DNA of 21,911 nt from a virus. Positions 12,197 through 21,911 of the stretch are shown here, piece by piece. The stretch lies in the IMG/VR virus record IMGVR_UViG_3300032053_000599, positions 1 through 21,911 of that record. One strand, written 5' to 3'. The notes under the pieces were generated by a model. That model did not search any database and was not told where the DNA came from. It saw only the letters and a program-made list of their open reading frames with translations. Each line of letters begins with the position of its first letter. The first letter of the stretch is position 1. A program made the translations under genes and the position numbers.

Positions 12197-13588
12197 ATGG
12201 CTCTAACAGATTATTCATTGGATCAATATAGTAAAATACCAAATGTAAGCCAAGAAACGCTAGACGCATTGTCTAAACTTCCGAAATATAGCGAAATGGC
12301 TAACTTGGAAACATTACCACAAAATATTCAGCAGACAGCACAAGGAATTACTCCATTTAATCCAGTTGAAGCACAGAACATACAAAAAGCTTCTATGCCA
12401 ATGATTCAAACAGAAGAGCCACAACTAGAAACTGGCGATCAAAAAGATGAATATGTAAAAATGCTCGAATCTGGAAAACTTAAAGACATGCAAGCTTTAG
12501 ATGAGCTTTACAAAATGAGAAGTCAAGCTGCATTGTCTGGATATGAACAGGGAGACAGAGAAGCTGGCGTTGCGGCAGGTGCAATATCAAAGCTTGGAAC
12601 AATCGCAGAGGAGCAACAGAAAACTGTTGATTTCCAAAACGAACAACTCGACAAACACATCCAATCTGCCGATGAAATTAAACGTCAATATGAAGGAATG
12701 AAAGTCGATTCAGGTCGTCTATGGGGTAAAATGGGAACAGGTCAAAAGATTATGGCAAGCCTTGCGCTTGTAATTGGTGGAATCGGATCCGGATTGACTG
12801 GTAAAGAGAATTCAGCATTACAAATAATGAACAATGCAATTGATCGTGATATTCAAGACCAAAGAGATCAGATTACGATACAAGGAAAAAAATATGAAGC
12901 AGCACGCGGAGTTTATAGCGATATGCTTAATAAGTTCGGTAACGAACGCGCTGCAATGGCAATGACAAAAGATTTATATCTGCAAAAAGCACAACTTGAG
13001 CTTAACAAATATGCGCTTAAAACAAACAGCATTGAAGCACGTCAAAAAGCAATGGATGCATCAGCACAACTTGAACAGCAGCGAATTATGATGAATATGC
13101 AATTTAAAGCATCTATGCTTAATGAATTAAAAGCAAAAGGAACCGGAGACATAGCCCGCGGCATTGATACAATACAGGATGAAAAAGAACGAGAACAAGC
13201 AACAGAAGAGTATGGACGTTTACAATCAATGAAAAGCAAAGAACAACAAGTTGATACTATTTTTAGTGATTTTGCACGTATCAAAGAAGAAAAAAGTTAT
13301 TTAACAAGCCCACTTGAAAAGACAAGACAAAAAGAAATGAATAAAACGGCAGTTAGATTATTGCTTGCTGATGTTGCACAAAAGTTCCCAAAAGGAGGAG
13401 AACAGGTTGATAAAATAGTTGATTCACTTACTCCAAGCAAGGGAGATACACCGGAAACAATAGCATTAAAAAAGAAAAGATTGATAGAAACAATTAAAAC
13501 AGCGGATGACAAAGGATTTCCGACACTAACAAAACGTGGATTATTAAAAGAACAAAAACAAATACAAACAGGAAGGCCAGTTAAATAA
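12197..13588 (+). CDS. Putative DNA-ejection / internal virion protein 2 (463 aa)
   Basis: This is a helical, Gln/Lys/Glu-rich protein with long coiled-coil-like stretches (about 120-175 and 255-345). Its clearest mark is residues about 180-222: a hydrophobic Gly segment (IMASLALVIGGIGSGLTGKE) followed by ALQIMNNAIDRDIQDQRDQI. I know this 'GGIG-GLTG ... ALQ ... I-x-DI-x-x-Q' pattern from podovirus ejection proteins. The hydrophobic part may cross or touch the inner membrane after ejection. AGGGGG at 12186-12191 merges with the upstream TAG stop and sits five bases before ATG 12197. The stop overlaps the next start by one base (TAATG), implying coupled translation and matched amounts of proteins 2 and 3. 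Confidence 0.72.
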   Translation: MALTDYSLDQYSKIPNVSQETLDALSKLPKYSEMANLETLPQNIQQTAQGITPFNPVEAQNIQKASMPMIQTEEPQLETGDQKDEYVKMLESGKLKDMQALDELYKMRSQAALSGYEQGDREAGVAAGAISKLGTIAEEQQKTVDFQNEQLDKHIQSADEIKRQYEGMKVDSGRLWGKMGTGQKIMASLALVIGGIGSGLTGKENSALQIMNNAIDRDIQDQRDQITIQGKKYEAARGVYSDMLNKFGNERAAMAMTKDLYLQKAQLELNKYALKTNSIEARQKAMDASAQLEQQRIMMNMQFKASMLNELKAKGTGDIARGIDTIQDEKEREQATEEYGRLQSMKSKEQQVDTIFSDFARIKEEKSYLTSPLEKTRQKEMNKTAVRLLLADVAQKFPKGGEQVDKIVDSLTPSKGDTPETIALKKKRLIETIKTADDKGFPTLTKRGLLKEQKQIQTGRPVK

Positions 13589-16017
13589 TGGCAACATTAT
13601 ATGATGTTCAGACAAAACAACCTGCAAATATTCCAGAAAGCCAGATCGATGACGCTGTAAAGTCTGGAAACTATGCATTTAAAAAGAATGAACAAATTAA
13701 CGTTATTGATCCGACGACAAAAGAAACTGTTTCTGTATCTTCTAAAGATATTAAAGATGCAATAGATCAGGGATATTCAATTGAAACACCTTCTCAACAA
13801 ACTATTCGAAATTATGTCGAAGAAAATAAAGGATTACGCGGAACAACAAAAGTAGCTCTTGGACAATTTAGTAATCAATTCTTGCTTGGATTACCTGAAA
13901 TAGTAGCAGAGAAAAAAGGAGACCCGCTTGAAGTAGCAAAATGGGAAGCTCTTAAGAAAGATCATTCTGCCGCAAATATCGCAAGCGGTATTGCAGGTTT
14001 TGGTGGAAGCTTTCTTTATGGCGGGCCACTATTTAAAGCATCGTCTGTTGCCGGGCGCGCCGCATCGTCAATATTAGCAAAAGGACTTGAAAAAGTAGGA
14101 ATTGAAGCTGGAAGTAAAAGAATAGCGAGTAAAATAACATCAAATATTATAAAAAATGCATCAAGAATGGGAGTTGAGGCAGAAGTTCAAGGATTGCCAC
14201 AAACAATAACTGAAACAGCATTGGCAGACGAAGGAAAGCGTTTTGATACTGCGTCTGAAGCAATATTGATGAATGGAGCACTTGGCGCCGTACTTGGTAC
14301 TGGATTGTCAGGAATAAAAGGATTAAAAGCATTTGCACCTAAATTAAGTAGTTCAATAGAGGTGACAGGAAATAGAACGCTTGGTGACAAAATAAGAACG
14401 TGGTCAGCCGAGAAAGCATTAGGATTTTACAAGTCTGATATTAATCAGATGAATAAATTTGCAAGAAAAGGCGAAGATTTAGCTGCGCAATTTGCAGATA
14501 CGCTTGGGCAAACAGTAACAAGCAATGGTGAAAAAGTTATAAAGCTTGGTGATTCTATCGAGAATATACACGGAAAAGTATCTAACGTATTTGATAATGC
14601 TGGTAGTAAAATTGGTAATGTAATTAAAGTTGTCGATGATAAAGGAATGAAAGTATTTAATCCTAATGAGCTTGCAGATGTTGTTGAAATGTCTCTCGGA
14701 GATAAATACACTGCAAACAAAGCTTTTCCGGAGATATCAAATGAATTCAGCAAACGTGTTGAAAATCTAAGAATGTATGGAGATCAACCGATATCGTTTG
14801 CAGATGCGCAGAAGCTTAAAAGTGATTTCAATATTGGATATAAAGGCGCTGATAACGATAAAAAAGAAATGTATCGTCAAATATACGGTATTATCAATAA
14901 AGAAATTGAAAATAAGATGGAATTAGCTGCATCAAAGTTAAAAGACCCCGGCCTATTTGATACATTTATGCAGGCAAAAAAGGAATATCGAGCATCATTA
15001 AACGCAGGATTGGCTCTTGAAAAAAGACTTGCTGGTAAAGTCGGTAATAAATTTATCGGTTTGACTGATACAATTATAGGCGGTGAAGTGTTACAGGCAT
15101 TTGCAGAAAATCTTGATAAAATATCAGAATTGAAAAATATCGGAATGTTGGGACTAACAACGCTTGCGGCAAAGAAGCTCGGCGAGAAATATGGTGCATC
15201 GACTGTTTATTCAATTATGTCTAATGATGGATTAATGCGTGTATCTGGAATGATGAAAAAGCAAGCAAATAAAATAGGACTTGCTTCACGTTTTATTGAA
15301 GGTAAATCCGGTGTTTCACGTGAAACATTACCGCTTGAAGCAATGCGCAGGTTATTACAAAAAAGTGATGGTAAAAACAAAGAAGAAATGCTTCAAGACA
15401 TAGATAAAAAGCTTGAAGAAGTTGAAATGAATTTTGTAAATAATAAACCGATAAATGATTTGTCGGATTATTTAGCTGCAACCGGAGCTCCTGGAATATC
15501 TCAAGAATTCAGAATTAAAATGCAAAATATGATTGGTTATTTACGCGGAGCCGTTCCAAAGAATCCTTATTTTGATAATCCGCTACATCAGACGAAATGG
15601 AAAGCTTCTGATTCAGAGATAGCAGCATTTGAGCGTAAATTGCATGCGCTAGAAGATCCGTTCAGTATATTACATGATTATGAAGATGATACATTGACAC
15701 GAGATAAAATTGAAGCCGTTAGGGCGATATATCCGGAGACACTGAAAAGAATACAGCAACAGATTATTGATACTGCAACAGAAAAAAAGATGAAACCATT
15801 AAATTTCAAAAAACGTCTTAAATTATCTATGCTTATGGATGCTCCAATTGATAGAAGTTTTTCACACATTGTTGATCTTCAATTCGGTCATATGAAAGGC
15901 GCACAAATGGACATACAACAGCAACAGGAAACCAACAGGATGAGCAATGCAAAGTTTACATTAGCTAGTCAAAGTTCGAGTCGTTCTCAACAAATAGCCA
16001 GTAGGAGCAATACCTAA
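13588..16017 (+). CDS. Putative DNA-ejection / internal virion protein 3 (809 aa)
   Basis: The third and longest ejection-type protein starts within the previous stop (TAATG). Two related short units open it: LYDVQTKQPANIPESQIDDA (4-23) with GNYAF, and VIDPTTKETVSVSSKDIKDA (39-58) with QGYSI. This tandem motif is one I associate with ejection proteins. Gly/Ala-rich hydrophobic stretches follow at about 127-160 (IASGIAGFGGSFLYGGPLF) and 224-245 (AILMNGALGAVLGTGLSGIKGL), candidates for membrane insertion. The rest is helical and charged, ending in a Ser/Gln/Arg-rich tail. No transglycosylase or peptidase motif can be seen, unlike ejection proteins that digest peptidoglycan. Function is inferred from context and composition. 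Confidence 0.7.
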   Translation: MATLYDVQTKQPANIPESQIDDAVKSGNYAFKKNEQINVIDPTTKETVSVSSKDIKDAIDQGYSIETPSQQTIRNYVEENKGLRGTTKVALGQFSNQFLLGLPEIVAEKKGDPLEVAKWEALKKDHSAANIASGIAGFGGSFLYGGPLFKASSVAGRAASSILAKGLEKVGIEAGSKRIASKITSNIIKNASRMGVEAEVQGLPQTITETALADEGKRFDTASEAILMNGALGAVLGTGLSGIKGLKAFAPKLSSSIEVTGNRTLGDKIRTWSAEKALGFYKSDINQMNKFARKGEDLAAQFADTLGQTVTSNGEKVIKLGDSIENIHGKVSNVFDNAGSKIGNVIKVVDDKGMKVFNPNELADVVEMSLGDKYTANKAFPEISNEFSKRVENLRMYGDQPISFADAQKLKSDFNIGYKGADNDKKEMYRQIYGIINKEIENKMELAASKLKDPGLFDTFMQAKKEYRASLNAGLALEKRLAGKVGNKFIGLTDTIIGGEVLQAFAENLDKISELKNIGMLGLTTLAAKKLGEKYGASTVYSIMSNDGLMRVSGMMKKQANKIGLASRFIEGKSGVSRETLPLEAMRRLLQKSDGKNKEEMLQDIDKKLEEVEMNFVNNKPINDLSDYLAATGAPGISQEFRIKMQNMIGYLRGAVPKNPYFDNPLHQTKWKASDSEIAAFERKLHALEDPFSILHDYEDDTLTRDKIEAVRAIYPETLKRIQQQIIDTATEKKMKPLNFKKRLKLSMLMDAPIDRSFSHIVDLQFGHMKGAQMDIQQQQETNRMSNAKFTLASQSSSRSQQIASRSNT

Positions 16018-16050: not shown

Positions 16051-16398
16051 ATGGGAAGAAAGAATGTAATTGATGGGTTTTCAAGTATTAGCGCAGGAGA
16101 CATGAGCGGAGATATCACCGGAACGGTAAGCGATGTGCTGTTTACTGACAACATTGGAATGCAAGCCACATGGTCGGGGACTGCTCCTGTTGGCGAATTG
16201 CTTGTACAAGGATCAAATGATGGGATTACATATACAGATTTAGATTTCGGAGTTCCTATTGCAGTTACCGGAACACCCGGGAACCTCTTAATCAATATAA
16301 ACCAGTTCCCATATAGCAAAATACGCGTTTATTATGACAGAACTAGTGGAAGCGGAACGCTTAATGTAAAATTAACAAGCAAGCAGATTGGGGGCTAA
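16051..16398 (+). CDS. Small beta-rich phage structural protein (115 aa)
   Basis: This 115-residue protein opens the adhesion module. It is nearly all beta by eye: a Gly/Asp-rich N-terminus with MSGDITGTVSDV, a WSGTAPVGELLVQGSNDG segment at about 41-58, and a C-terminus with KIRVYYDRTSGSGTLNVKL. The 'W-x-G ... G-x-L-x-V-Q-x-S-x-DG ... R-x-x-Y-x-R-x-SG-x-GTLN' pattern resembles a widespread family of small phage virion proteins of jelly-roll type whose function is unknown to me. The ribosome-binding site is strong, a run of six G at 16041-16046. It probably forms part of the tail tip or fibre attachment, since a fibre gene follows one base later. Confidence 0.68.
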   Translation: MGRKNVIDGFSSISAGDMSGDITGTVSDVLFTDNIGMQATWSGTAPVGELLVQGSNDGITYTDLDFGVPIAVTGTPGNLLININQFPYSKIRVYYDRTSGSGTLNVKLTSKQIGG

Positions 16399-16399
16399 C

Positions 16400-17869
16400 A
16401 TGGCAGAGTATAAATGGCCAGTTGGCGGTAGTGGGGCTGGTATAAAAAAGGTAGCAGATGCAACGGCGCGTCTTGCATTAGTTCCTAACGATGGTGACGT
16501 TGTAATTCAATTGGATACAGATGCAATATGGAGCTATGATGCAACTGGATTAGTTTGGGTATTGCAGAGTGTTGGTGGCGGATATGGTAAAATGTTCACA
16601 AACGCTGCTGATACTGTTGCGGGATATCTCGATGACGAATTAACCGTATCAACTGGACTTACAAAGGCAATAACTGGAACTACAGACAAAAAGGTTCAAT
16701 TAACCAATTCTGATACTGGTAGTGCTGCTGTATCAACACATGAAGGAACGTATGTACATTCTGATATTGCATTAAACACTTCGGCGCGACATGCAGCGGT
16801 AACAATTTCAACAGCAAATGGTTTATCGATACTTGCACAGGCGTTGAGCCTTGGATTAGCATCAAGTGGTGTTACAGGGGCATTATCTGGAACGGATTGG
16901 ACAACATTTAATGCTAAAGAACCAGCATTAACTAAAGGGAATCTGTCTGAAACTACATCAAGCGTATTGACGATTTCTAGCGGTACAAATGCTGTAATTG
17001 GAACAGGAACTACAATCGAAGTTAAACAGGCAGGGGCAGCACAGTCTGGGTATCTTAGTTCAACAGACTGGGGAACTTTCAACGGTAAACAAGGCGCATT
17101 ATCGTTTGGAAACTTAACTGAAACTACAAGCTCTGTGTTGACGATTGGAAGCGGAACAGGAGCTGTTATCGGCTCTGGCACTACAATTACTGTTGCGCAA
17201 TCTGGTTCTGGAACATCGGGCTATCTAAGCTCAACAGATTGGTCTACATTTAACGGGAAGGCACCGTCAGGCGCATCATATCTGACAGCAACAGCAGAAG
17301 GTGGATTAAGTGCTGAAGTAAATTTGGGAGCACTAACAACCGGATTATTGAAAATATCGGTAGCTGCTGGCGTTGCAACACCTTCAACTGCGTCAAGTGG
17401 AACAGACTATGAGCCTCCGGTTACTAAGGGAAATCTAACCGAAGCGACAAGCTCTATTTTAACAATAACTGGCGGAACTGGCGCAGTAATCGGAAGCGGA
17501 ACAACCGTTGAGGTTAAACAGGCGGCAACTGCACAGTCTGGGTATCTTAGTAGTACGGATTGGAATACATTTTCAGGTAAACAAGACAGAATTCGATCTG
17601 TAGTAACAAAAACAGCAGATTATACAGCAACCACGAGTGATGACGTTATTTTATTAGATGGATCCAGCGCAACTGTGAATATTACGCTTTATACCACGAC
17701 AAGTAATAGCGGAAGAATGCTGACATTGATTTGTACTGGCGCTGCAAATGAATGCAAGGTGTCAACAGTTGGTGGAAATCAACTTAATGGTGACACGGTG
17801 TATTATTTCACTGGATTGTATGACAAAATAAATATCGTAACAAATGGTACAGATTGGTTTATAATGTAA
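16400..17869 (+). CDS. Tail fibre protein with ~54-residue repeats (489 aa)
   Basis: A receptor-binding fibre. The start is ATG 16400 because TGGGGG lies five bases upstream; a TTG at 16388 would overlap the previous gene and lacks this spacing. N-terminal residues 16-55 (KKVADATARLALVPNDGDVV, WSYDATGLVWVLQ) are a module seen at the head-proximal end of many tail proteins. Residues 178-231, 235-288 and 342-395 are three copies of a repeat with the core SGYLSSTDWxTFxGK and TTSSVLTI, plus a partial copy near 155-173. The C-terminal 95 residues (VVTKTADYTATTSDDVILLDG to the end) look like a trimeric beta-rich tip domain found on other phage fibres. It binds the cell surface; the receptor cannot be read from sequence. 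Confidence 0.85.
   Translation: MAEYKWPVGGSGAGIKKVADATARLALVPNDGDVVIQLDTDAIWSYDATGLVWVLQSVGGGYGKMFTNAADTVAGYLDDELTVSTGLTKAITGTTDKKVQLTNSDTGSAAVSTHEGTYVHSDIALNTSARHAAVTISTANGLSILAQALSLGLASSGVTGALSGTDWTTFNAKEPALTKGNLSETTSSVLTISSGTNAVIGTGTTIEVKQAGAAQSGYLSSTDWGTFNGKQGALSFGNLTETTSSVLTIGSGTGAVIGSGTTITVAQSGSGTSGYLSSTDWSTFNGKAPSGASYLTATAEGGLSAEVNLGALTTGLLKISVAAGVATPSTASSGTDYEPPVTKGNLTEATSSILTITGGTGAVIGSGTTVEVKQAATAQSGYLSSTDWNTFSGKQDRIRSVVTKTADYTATTSDDVILLDGSSATVNITLYTTTSNSGRMLTLICTGAANECKVSTVGGNQLNGDTVYYFTGLYDKINIVTNGTDWFIM
16931..17584 (+). repeat. Three diverged ~160-bp coding repeats in the tail fibre gene
   Basis: Copies lie at about 16931-17092, 17102-17263 and 17423-17584. They share an encoded core of GNL-x-E-x-TSS-x-LTI, then G-x-x-AVIG-x-GTT, then SGYLSSTDW. 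The first two are nearly adjacent; the third is separated by about 160 bp of different sequence. A partial fourth copy (GALSGTDWTTFNAK) precedes them. The DNA copies differ at many third positions, so the duplication is old rather than a fresh tandem expansion. Confidence 0.85.
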
Positions 17870-17879
17870 GGGGGAAAGA

Positions 17880-19751
17880 ATGAAGTTATTATCAATACTT
17901 TTAATTTTTACATCGTTAATACTTGCCTCACCGCTACCCGATGCGGATAGACAATTATATCAATTCCTGAATATGAAGGATAACACAAATGGTGGCTGTG
18001 AAAACGGAACATCGAAATGGACAAATAGCGGCGGGACATTTACAACTACATCAACAGCAGCAAACGTAGCAGACGGAAAGCGCGCATGTTCATTTGATGC
18101 AAGCAATACATCACAATATTTTGAAACTTCACAATTTACATTACCAGCATATATGCGTGAAAAGCATTGTCTCGCTCGTGTATGGTTAAAAGGATTCGAT
18201 GCAAATTATGCTATCAATATAATCGATGAAGACAACGACGTATTAGCAACATATACTTTGACAGCATATACATCATATCAAATGGTTGATATTAATTTTG
18301 TTCCTGATAGCGACGGGACTACAGTAAGATTTCAGATTATATCAAGCGCAGACGGCGCAATAGGATACCTGGACGATCTATATATAGGATTGGCAACGAA
18401 TCTTACTCAGGTAAGTCAGGCATACAATTTTGCTGGAGCAAAATTTACTGGAAAAGCTAGTTGTGAATGGACAAGTACAGCCGGATCTTTTACTGATTTT
18501 GCAACAGACGCAGACTGTAGCACTGTAGCACTATCTGGAAGCGCAACAGGAACCGGTACTGGATATCAACCAGCGGTGACAACCGGAGCTGGTAAAAGCG
18601 GTGATTATTATGTGTTCGCTACGGGAGCATTTCAAGTTGTTAGTTCTAGCGATACTTGTTATTTTACAATTAGCGATGGTACAACAAAAAGTGGGAAGGC
18701 AACACTAACAAGTATTTCATATGAAAGTGTTCCGACTTTAATTGGAAAATTTTCATATACATCATCATTTGCTGCTAAAACATTTATTATTCAGGCATAT
18801 CGTTCTGGATCAACAAATAATTGTAGAATAGACAATCAACAAACGGTACAGAACTTTGAAATAAATGTTCTCTATGTCCCCTCAGGTTCAGAACTCGCGG
18901 TAACGAATGAGACAATGACACAAATCGGGCGTGCGTCGCATGATGTTATCTGTGGTAGTTGGTTAAATACTAACGCAACATATGATTTACCAACTGGTGA
19001 TGCAACCTGCAATTTTTCATTTGACACCACCCGATCGACTAATTGGCCAACAATAACAAGCGTTGCAGACGGTACTGGTAATCAACCGGGAATTAAATTT
19101 ACTCCTACAAGATTAGGAACAATTTTTATTTGTGCGCAGGCAAATTATCTTATGAATCAAACAGCGAATAAAACAGCTTTTGCAAAATTATTTTCTGATG
19201 GTGTCGCTATTACTAATCAACATTCTCAATATTGGCAAGCTTCCGGTGCTGCCGCTTCTTCTTCGTTAGTAATTTGTACCACGGACAAAATAACATCTTT
19301 TGCACAAAAACAATATGATATTAGATTAGCAGTCGATACAGGGGGGCAGACTAATCTTTATGGCCCAATTGATTGGGATATGTTCTATATATCTAATCAA
19401 CTTCCGATGCCTAACATTTTGAACATGGTTACCACATCTTCAAATGGTGGTTTACGCATTAATAGCGCAACGCTTAATTGTGATTCTGGATCATCAATAA
19501 CTTCACAGGATGGGACTTGGATTTCTGCAATCGGTAATATTTCAAGCGGCGCATGCGCAGTAACAGTGACTAGTGGGATATTCACGACAACGCCAAGATG
19601 TTTTGCAAATGCAATTGGTACAACGAAAGATGTTAGGTGCCAATTGAACCCAACGAGCACAACGGCGTTTACGCTGTATGCCACAAAACCAAGTGACGGG
19701 TCGGATTTAACAACGGTTGATTGCGATGTGTATTGTATAGGCGGCAAATAA
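17880..19751 (+). CDS. Cys-rich jelly-roll-like protein with predicted Sec signal peptide, in the tail fibre cluster (623 aa)
   Basis: The N-terminus MKLLSILLIFTSLILASP has the form of a signal peptide: Lys2, a hydrophobic core at 3-15, and a possible cleavage after Ala16 or Ser17. AGGGGG at 17869-17874, five bases before ATG, supports this start. Residues about 31-170 resemble a carbohydrate-binding jelly-roll (GTSKWTNSGGTF to YLDDLYIG). About 185-335 and 350-508 look like two copies of one domain (EW-x-ST / SW-x-NT, DADC / DATC, then YQPAVT / NQPGIK). The final 115 residues hold five more cysteines. In all there are 17 Cys, spread evenly, unlike nearby virion proteins, which suggests disulfides formed in an oxidising compartment. 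Host adhesion or surface display is inferred. It could still be a virion fibre whose hydrophobic N-terminus docks on the tail. Confidence 0.72.
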   Translation: MKLLSILLIFTSLILASPLPDADRQLYQFLNMKDNTNGGCENGTSKWTNSGGTFTTTSTAANVADGKRACSFDASNTSQYFETSQFTLPAYMREKHCLARVWLKGFDANYAINIIDEDNDVLATYTLTAYTSYQMVDINFVPDSDGTTVRFQIISSADGAIGYLDDLYIGLATNLTQVSQAYNFAGAKFTGKASCEWTSTAGSFTDFATDADCSTVALSGSATGTGTGYQPAVTTGAGKSGDYYVFATGAFQVVSSSDTCYFTISDGTTKSGKATLTSISYESVPTLIGKFSYTSSFAAKTFIIQAYRSGSTNNCRIDNQQTVQNFEINVLYVPSGSELAVTNETMTQIGRASHDVICGSWLNTNATYDLPTGDATCNFSFDTTRSTNWPTITSVADGTGNQPGIKFTPTRLGTIFICAQANYLMNQTANKTAFAKLFSDGVAITNQHSQYWQASGAAASSSLVICTTDKITSFAQKQYDIRLAVDTGGQTNLYGPIDWDMFYISNQLPMPNILNMVTTSSNGGLRINSATLNCDSGSSITSQDGTWISAIGNISSGACAVTVTSGIFTTTPRCFANAIGTTKDVRCQLNPTSTTAFTLYATKPSDGSDLTTVDCDVYCIGGK

Positions 19752-19959: not shown

Positions 19960-20088
19960 ATGAAATATTTATTATTGTTAGTTGTGATGTTTTTTGCAGC
20001 ATGTACCGTGATGGGTTGTTCTGGAAAAGTTATTGTCAAAGACTGCGAATCTATTGGTGGCAATGTTTATCAATGTTACAAAATCTGA
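19960..20088 (+). CDS. Very small lipoprotein (42 aa)
   Basis: ATG 19960 follows AGGGGG (19950-19955) by four bases; longer in-frame starts upstream lack such a site. Residues 1-19 form a classic lipoprotein signal: Lys2, a hydrophobic core LLLLVVMFFAA, then a lipobox-like VMGC with Cys20 as the lipidated residue (an alternative is FAAC with Cys15). The mature part would be only about 23 residues and holds two more cysteines (29 and 39) that could form a disulfide. Phages carry such proteins as outer spanins (Rz1 type) or as superinfection-exclusion lipoproteins (T5 Llp type). Spanin is less likely: the mature part is not proline-rich and no Rz or lysis gene adjoins. The gene sits between adhesion genes, so receptor masking is a reasonable guess only. 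Confidence 0.72.
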   Translation: MKYLLLLVVMFFAACTVMGCSGKVIVKDCESIGGNVYQCYKI

Positions 20089-20096
20089 GGTGTTGA

Positions 20097-21911
20097 ATGA
20101 TTATTACTTATCCTTTTAGTGATTCTCCTAGCAATTATACTTTAACCAATACTGAACTTATTGGAGGTAAGGCGCAATTAACGCTAACCAACAATACAGG
20201 GCAAGTATTTAATCAGCCATTCACTTCTAGTTCTGGATTCACATTTGATGCGGCGAAGGCAGAATTTTCTGGCGGTAAAGTACAACAGAAAGACCAACGT
20301 CCGGCGAATGCAACATTCGGGGCAACATATACAACAGATATTAATGGTTCATGGGGAAGCGGTAGTTTAACTGGAACCGGAACAGGGTCTCCAACTGTTT
20401 CTGCTGGGAAATTAGTATTAACTGGAGGTGGACTTAAGTTTGTATCATATCCTGCCGCGAACATAACATCATTAGTACAAACTGGAACAATTAGATTAAA
20501 ATATACTCCCAATTATTCTACGACACCGGCAGCTAACAGATTTTTTTTCGGAATTGCAGAATCAGCCGTATCTGTAAATAATAAATTTAATTTTTATCAT
20601 GATTCTACTGGTCATTTGCGTATATATATGTATTCTTCAACCGGGGCGTTGTTAATTGGAACAGACTTAGGTTTTTGGAACCCAACATCTGGAACCGAAT
20701 ATGAATTTTGTATTTGTTATGATTTGACATCTGGATCAACAAAAACATTTATTGACGGAATACAGTTTGGAAGCACTATTTCTTCAACTGGCACAAGATC
20801 AAATAGCATAGGAACGTTTAACATTGGTACTGGAGCTACCGGAACTGATCTATCAGATTTTTATATTAATGATTTAATTTGCTATTCTACAGTTTTATTT
20901 ACATCAAATTATACTCCCGGTTATACTGTTGTAGAAAGCTCATATTGTGCAAGCAATGTCGATCTTCCTATATTTACATATTCAGATATTGGAACAATCC
21001 AAGCTTTAACAGGATTCACTACAACCGAAGCAAATACACCAAGATATACAATAAATAGTAAATATTGGAATGGCTCTGCGTGGGTTGCTAGCAGTGGAGT
21101 ATATGCACAGGCAAACACAAAGACGGACATTAATGCGCATATTAGTACGCTAACGATTGGTTCAACATATTCGGTAAGCATATTGTTTACCGATTCAAAC
21201 ACTCAATCTAATGTTGATGGTTTGAATATTACATATACTGGACAAAAATATAATTTAAGTGGATCGGTTAAAACAAGTGGATTTACTTGTGAAAGCATTT
21301 CTTTGATTGTTGAAACAGTAACAAAGCCTGCATCGACAACATTAACCTATGCGATAGAAGTAGACGGTATTCTTAAGTGGTGGGATGGGGCGGCATGGTC
21401 AACGAGTAATGGTGCGGTGGCTCAAACCAATTCGATTGCAACTATTATTACAAATCTTACAACGCTTATTACTGTAGTATCGACAGTTAAAATGTATATG
21501 TTGCTTGAGACATCTGTTCCGACCGTGTCAACTCCGGATATAGATGAATTGTCAGTAACATATGATTATGCTGCGGTAATTACGTCTCCTACTACTTGCA
21601 TAGTTTATGGGATTTATCGTGATATATCAGGAATCGGAGTAAATGGGGCAACAGTAACAGCCACGCTGTATAGATCAAGCGGGGAATATAAAGAGGCAAG
21701 TGCATCAATTATAGAAAGCCCGTTGTCTGTAACAACTGGACCGCAAGTGCTGCATCCTGCATGGGCTGATGGATACTTTGAGCTTGATCTAATATGGGCG
21801 TCTGAATACGAGGGAACCGGACTCTATAAGATAACAATAGAAAAGGCTTCCTCTTCTTTGTATACAGCAAAAACAAGTACTGGCGCTATCTTGATAACTG
21901 TACCTGATTCT
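20097..21911 (+). CDS. Lectin-like (LamG/concanavalin-like) tail fibre or adhesin, 3' truncated by window edge
   Basis: The frame is open from ATG 20097 to the last base (605 codons, no stop), so the C-terminus is missing. GAGGTG lies six bases upstream. After an N-terminal attachment-like region (1-75), residues about 78-275 look like a concanavalin/LamG jelly-roll: GTIRLKYTPNY, FFFGIAE, KFNFYHDSTGHLRIYMYS, YEFCICYDL, KTFIDGIQFGS, and DFYINDLICYS. Two related modules follow at about 319-385 and 424-490, both with a W-x-G-x-AW core and a TL spacer, ending in L-x-I/V-TY. Residues about 495-605 resemble an Ig-like/carboxypeptidase-regulatory domain (GIGVNGATVTATLY). This layout suggests a glycan-binding virion fibre. 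It lacks the signal peptide seen two genes earlier. Confidence 0.8.
   Translation, partial: MIITYPFSDSPSNYTLTNTELIGGKAQLTLTNNTGQVFNQPFTSSSGFTFDAAKAEFSGGKVQQKDQRPANATFGATYTTDINGSWGSGSLTGTGTGSPTVSAGKLVLTGGGLKFVSYPAANITSLVQTGTIRLKYTPNYSTTPAANRFFFGIAESAVSVNNKFNFYHDSTGHLRIYMYSSTGALLIGTDLGFWNPTSGTEYEFCICYDLTSGSTKTFIDGIQFGSTISSTGTRSNSIGTFNIGTGATGTDLSDFYINDLICYSTVLFTSNYTPGYTVVESSYCASNVDLPIFTYSDIGTIQALTGFTTTEANTPRYTINSKYWNGSAWVASSGVYAQANTKTDINAHISTLTIGSTYSVSILFTDSNTQSNVDGLNITYTGQKYNLSGSVKTSGFTCESISLIVETVTKPASTTLTYAIEVDGILKWWDGAAWSTSNGAVAQTNSIATIITNLTTLITVVSTVKMYMLLETSVPTVSTPDIDELSVTYDYAAVITSPTTCIVYGIYRDISGIGVNGATVTATLYRSSGEYKEASASIIESPLSVTTGPQVLHPAWADGYFELDLIWASEYEGTGLYKITIEKASSSLYTAKTSTGAILITVPDS

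Follow-up and report, generated by a model that had tools for sequence, protein, structure and literature searches.

A phage tail-fibre locus encodes an exported mosaic lectin-like protein that may be the tip of a two-piece fibre

What is a protein with an export signal doing in a tail-fibre locus? Tailed phages are not thought to mature fibre parts outside the cytoplasm. The window considered here, which is the whole of one IMG/VR record (21911 bases), carries podovirus-like phage genes (terminase, portal and tail), and an earlier note, made from the letters of this stretch alone, had pointed to a product of its fibre operon with an export signal and many cysteines. The features of the locus are as follows.

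16051..16398, + strand: 115-aa protein; in relatives conserved where the fibre locus begins, E down to 2.7e-24
16400..17869, + strand: upstream signal-less fibre-like protein, candidate virion-bound stub; 489 aa, 2 Cys
17870..17875, + strand: GGGGGA, ribosome-binding site for the exported protein, read from the sequence
17880..19751, + strand: predicted exported fibre protein of 623 aa with 17 Cys, a mosaic of lectin-like modules
17880..17927, + strand: Sec-type signal peptide, residues 1-16, read from the sequence and kept in homologues
17928..17984, + strand: short mature N-terminus with the motif LPDADR, common to short-leader members of the family

Because a strong ribosome-binding site (TAAGGGGGAAAGA at 17867-17879) directly precedes the ATG at 17880, we regard this ATG as the correct start; it lies 10 nt beyond the stop codon with which the fibre-like gene upstream ends. 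The encoded N-terminus, MKLLSILLIFTSLILA followed by SPLP, combines Lys2 with a hydrophobic core at residues 3-15 and a plausible cleavage site at A16/S17, where the Ile at -3 is not ideal and where the sequence holds no lipobox. Its hydrophobicity is the highest in the window except for that of a 42-aa lipoprotein. Signal peptides were called with a home-made tripartite test, run as a script, together with the conservation of the leader in homologues; the test was positive here and distant homologues keep the leader, in agreement with the export signal that the earlier note had described (Lys2, core 3-15, cleavage near 16/17). The note had also counted the cysteines correctly, both the two in the flanking fibre-like protein and the 17 in this one (positions 40, 70, 97, 195, 213, 260, 315, 358, 377, 418, 466, 534, 559, 574, 587, 615 and 619). 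On the basis of the 0.83% Cys in the other proteins of the window, 5.2 would be expected (P(>=17)=2.7e-5).

Neither Pfam nor PHROGs yielded a family match for the 623-aa protein. Searches by tblastn gave no significant match, whether with the protein itself in INPHARED, with a distant family member against phages or with another member against plasmids, and peptide-pattern scans of viral and genome contigs, based on the whole protein or on the Bd2734-like module described below, gave none either; Peptidase_S74 was not found within the window. A DNA pattern for W-T-x-S-G-G-T-F-x-x-T, combined with an alignment scan, recruited about 26 relatives on IMG/VR viral contigs of several phage types. 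The aligned relatives have 19-31% identity to the 623-aa protein, several of them over most of its length. When the leader was compared across these homologues, as the earlier note had proposed, the script recognised a signal peptide in 22 of the 24 testable members, against 15 of 247 other ORFs taken as background. It failed on L121, whose leader is clearly hydrophobic and contains a Glu in the n-region, and on L122, where a signal-like start was found in another frame. The leaders differ in sequence among members and keep the anatomy of a signal peptide, and the mean Cys content of the family is 1.8%, compared with 0.5% for the remaining large proteins on the contigs that carry it. The motif after the short leaders has the consensus [LI]x[EDN]xD[KR]. 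Export of the 623-aa protein by Sec is thus well supported; the leader would then be cleaved, and the cysteines would presumably pair as disulfides.

Two further observations concern this family. The L122 ORF (L122:1550-5686, on the same contig as L136:1384-1617) encodes 1378 aa, bears the first domain (D1, below) and has no leader, and the signal-like start in its overlapping frame suggests a frameshift or a sequencing error. In several relatives, the exported fibre protein is followed by a smaller leader-bearing, Cys-containing protein of 173-240 aa (L152:7901-8623, L112:2029-2550, L154:7807-8514 and L155:7850-8518), which is not present in the window.

What would such a protein do once exported? 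An AlphaFold2 model of the monomer, based on 13 sequences of the family and with a mean pLDDT of 72, divides it into four domains.

17985..18398, + strand: D1, residues 36-173; predicted carbohydrate-binding-module fold, CBM4/16/61-like, with many PDB homologues (8xmz, Z 15.2)
18420..18878, + strand: D2, residues 181-333; predicted TNF-like module, homologous to the tip of the mosaic adhesive trimer (MAT) Bd2734
18921..19397, + strand: D3, residues 348-506; predicted second TNF-like lectin fold (9ib7, Z 12.6; 2wq4, Z 11.9)
19452..19748, + strand: D4, residues 525-623; predicted C-terminal beta knob, with Cys574 and Cys619 invariant

Bd2734 is a MAT fibre of Bdellovibrio bacteriovorus, the TNF-like tip of which is known (PDB 8OKW; PMC10769870). 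This structure was the single match of the 623-aa protein in a phmmer search of the PDB (E 5e-11); the D2 model superimposes on it with Z 22.6 and 1.4 A over 150 residues, and all four cysteines of D2 are common to the Bd2734 tip. D4, modelled separately with pLDDT 87, has no clear match among PDB structures; its similarity to the knobs of phage fibres and tailspikes, many of which were among the matches, and to H-type lectins is weak (best Z 7.9, all <8). Matches of single domains to fibroin and neuraminidase were weak and were taken as chance. A mosaic in which one CBM-like and two TNF-like lectin modules precede a putative C-terminal knob is thus well supported by the model, and the class of these folds suggests that the protein trimerises.

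Like Bd2734, the 623-aa protein unites a signal peptide, a mosaic fibre and a TNF-like adhesive tip of known type; unlike it, the protein is encoded by a phage in a tail-fibre locus and has two tandem TNF-like modules followed by a putative C-terminal knob. In the MAT superfamily, the signal peptide is followed by a conserved beta domain of about 130 aa without PDB homologues (PMC10769870), whereas the domain after the leader here has a CBM fold, a difference that rests on the description of the MAT domain. If the protein joins the virion, the homology of D2 to Bd2734 would connect host recognition by phages with the MAT adhesins that predators use on their prey.

The same pair of genes occurs in an isolated Bdellovibrio phage, phi1422 (JQ177062), as gp67 and gp68. 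The former (352 aa, annotated 'putative tail-fiber') has no Cys; the latter (614 aa, annotated 'hypothetical') starts 1 nt after it and has a signal peptide, MKFMIAFIIALFSVTMATA, and 8 Cys. A profile of the family ranked gp68 first among 4500 frames (E 3.5e-8), with the match in D1 only, and a D1 profile scored 27.8 bits against gp68, compared with <=13.8 in 2000 shuffles. The two loci are alike in that a signal-less tail-fibre protein is followed by a Cys-bearing protein with a signal peptide and a homologous D1, and they differ in that homology to gp68 is detectable in D1 only. Since D2 matches a Bdellovibrio protein and phi1422 harbours this gene pair too, Bdellovibrio-like hosts appear likely for the family, and the phage of the window probably infects such a predatory bacterium. 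As phi1422 is an isolated phage, whether such an exported protein joins the virion is open to direct testing.

Which gene accompanies the family elsewhere? In almost all loci, the family gene lies directly 3' of a short, Cys-poor, fibre-like gene (the stub) on the same strand, and with few exceptions the gap measures -4 to 24 nt. The exceptions are L124, L145 and L130, in which the protein upstream is itself leader-like at its N-terminus, and L132, with a 270-nt gap; L149 was left unresolved in this survey. In three unrelated stub groups, the match of the stub to tail-fibre families is confined to their N-terminal part. First, in Mu-like contigs, it comes after homologues of baseplate gp47/gp48 and matches the N-terminal part of phrog_2617/1858/6859, families of 346-1018 positions. 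Second, in the T7-like contig L121, the first 127 residues of a 377-aa stub match the N-terminus of tail-fibre families (its match to Pfam Phage_T7_tail, at E 5e-4, is below the cut-off). Third, the remaining group matches phrog_2282. One stub group has an extra conserved C-terminal domain in common and may represent short fibres that are complete in themselves. The length between leader and D1 tracks the stub group, with short leaders beside one group in 7/7 cases and long shafts beside the two others in 11/11; Fisher's test gives 3e-5, uncorrected for relatedness, and much of this correlation could reflect co-inheritance of neighbouring genes. The stubs converge on 'EV' at their C-termini; this was weighed as a possible docking motif and is largely accounted for by GAGGT, which serves the following gene as ribosome-binding site. 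Contigs L125 and L126 contain additional fibre-like genes, and the fibre loci at L124:9133-12745 and L145:3918-7800 hold three consecutive leader-bearing proteins, the upstream ones of which begin, when mature, like STTTKQID.

In the window, the upstream protein at 16400..17869 matched neither a fibre family nor a PHROG; its C-terminal domain is common to fibre-locus proteins of relatives of the window phage. The 623-aa protein has a short leader, yet this upstream protein falls outside the stub group usual for short leaders. The relatives, collected through the portal and extended downstream, have clear counterparts of the genes at 13588-16017 and 16051-16398, followed by a fibre-locus protein and then by a one-piece signal-less fibre that starts M[SA]YIGKNP or similar. 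Since this one-piece fibre occupies the slot of the exported protein, the 623-aa protein sits where a fibre would be expected. The earlier note had held that leaderless homologous fibres would argue against its reading: the homologues keep the leader, whereas these positional counterparts lack one and have another N-terminus. A D4-like domain is detectable in two of the one-piece fibres, L092 and L093 (E 2e-4 and 6e-4), in neither case with the conserved Cys pair (the cysteines of L093 lie elsewhere), which suggests that the Cys pattern accompanies export.

How might an exported protein serve as a fibre? The reading we prefer, for which the scales stand about level, is that the tail fibre is made in two pieces and that this gene supplies the receptor-binding half, which is exported and joined to virions at lysis. 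The protein would leave the cytoplasm via Sec, and the cysteines of its lectin mosaic, the folds of which are well supported, would pair in an oxidising compartment. Virions would meanwhile assemble in the cytoplasm with the signal-less upstream partner alone and would pick up the exported tip once lysis mixes the compartments. The tip would then recognise glycans on the host surface; this host is probably a Bdellovibrio-like predator, which exports MAT fibres of its own that contain such a module. That structural parts can in principle be added late is shown by T4, whose unassembled tail parts join in mixed extracts (PMC9576892); a precedent for a Sec-exported tail-fibre tip was not found in the literature searched. 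Other points that weigh against this reading are the possible co-inheritance behind the correlation of stubs and leaders, the stub group that may be complete in itself, the upstream protein of the window, with neither a fibre-family match nor the expected stub type, and the additional fibre-like genes in L125, in L126 and, in the window, at 20097. The 623-aa protein resembles one-piece fibres and tailspikes (AP22 gp53, phiAB6 and R-pyocin fibres) in its locus and, weakly (Z 7.9), in its C-terminal knob. Those proteins carry the virion-docking part on the same chain and have no signal peptide; here a signal peptide takes the place of the docking domain, and in the homologues a docking-type domain lies on the upstream ORF. 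If the exported tip does join virions, a portion of the fibre of a tailed phage matures outside the cytoplasm, and disulfide-dependent receptor-binding modules become usable for phages. With somewhat less assurance, we speculate that the arrangement is widespread, mainly among phages of Bdellovibrio-like predators, as a cytoplasmic stub plus an exported disulfide lectin tip, shared with or borrowed from host adhesins and joined at lysis.

Could the protein instead act without ever joining the virion? The signal peptide, the Cys content and the homology of D2 to host MAT adhesin tips would also suit an adhesin that coats the infected cell or presents its lectin modules there or in the lysate, with receptor masking, superinfection exclusion or, in the manner of a MAT adhesin, a changed encounter of the infected or lysogenic predator with its prey as possible roles. 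Exported phage proteins of this kind are familiar: Lom, Cor and Llp are small outer-membrane or lipid-anchored proteins encoded beside receptor-binding genes, and the 623-aa protein shares their export signal and place beside fibre genes, but it has no lipobox or outer-membrane barrel and consists of soluble lectin folds in the model. We consider this alternative possible, at a clearly lower probability, since the gene stays in the fibre slot behind a stub in unrelated phages instead of being scattered, its positional counterpart in the window relatives is a one-piece fibre, the protein lacks any anchor in lipid or membrane, and the domain next to the leader has a fold other than that of the MAT N-terminal domain. 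The earlier note's proposal that a fibre operon encodes a lectin-like protein of the exported, disulfide type is borne out by the MAT-type tip, the TNF-like and CBM folds and the conserved leader; its suggestion of receptor masking or cell coating fares worse, and on positional evidence (stub adjacency, and a one-piece fibre in the slot) masking is the less likely of the two live options, a receptor-binding fibre part being favoured. The locus and the fibre-like modules would also fit an ordinary cytoplasmic virion fibre with an uncleaved hydrophobic plug that binds the upstream protein, but this is improbable given leaders that vary in sequence yet retain signal-peptide anatomy, the Cys enrichment of the family over the large proteins encoded around it on its contigs, and the lack of the conserved Cys pair in D4-like domains of signal-less fibres.

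Several other genes near these loci deserve mention. Two genes past the exported fibre protein, at 19960-20088, the window encodes the 42-aa predicted lipoprotein (MKYLLLLVVMFFAACTVMGCSG...), which could be spanin-like or an exclusion lipoprotein. Another signal-less fibre-like protein, at 20097-21911, is truncated by the contig end and has a weak concanavalin-like (Laminin_G_3) match. In the window relatives, a large Cys-poor protein in the region of the internal virion proteins starts with MLRAILIFVLLGSTAMAK or a similar stretch that looks like a signal peptide, as at L088:14558-17080, L089:2820-5309, L093:1416-4358, L094:2643-5360, L101:2415-4937 and L092:7104-9932.
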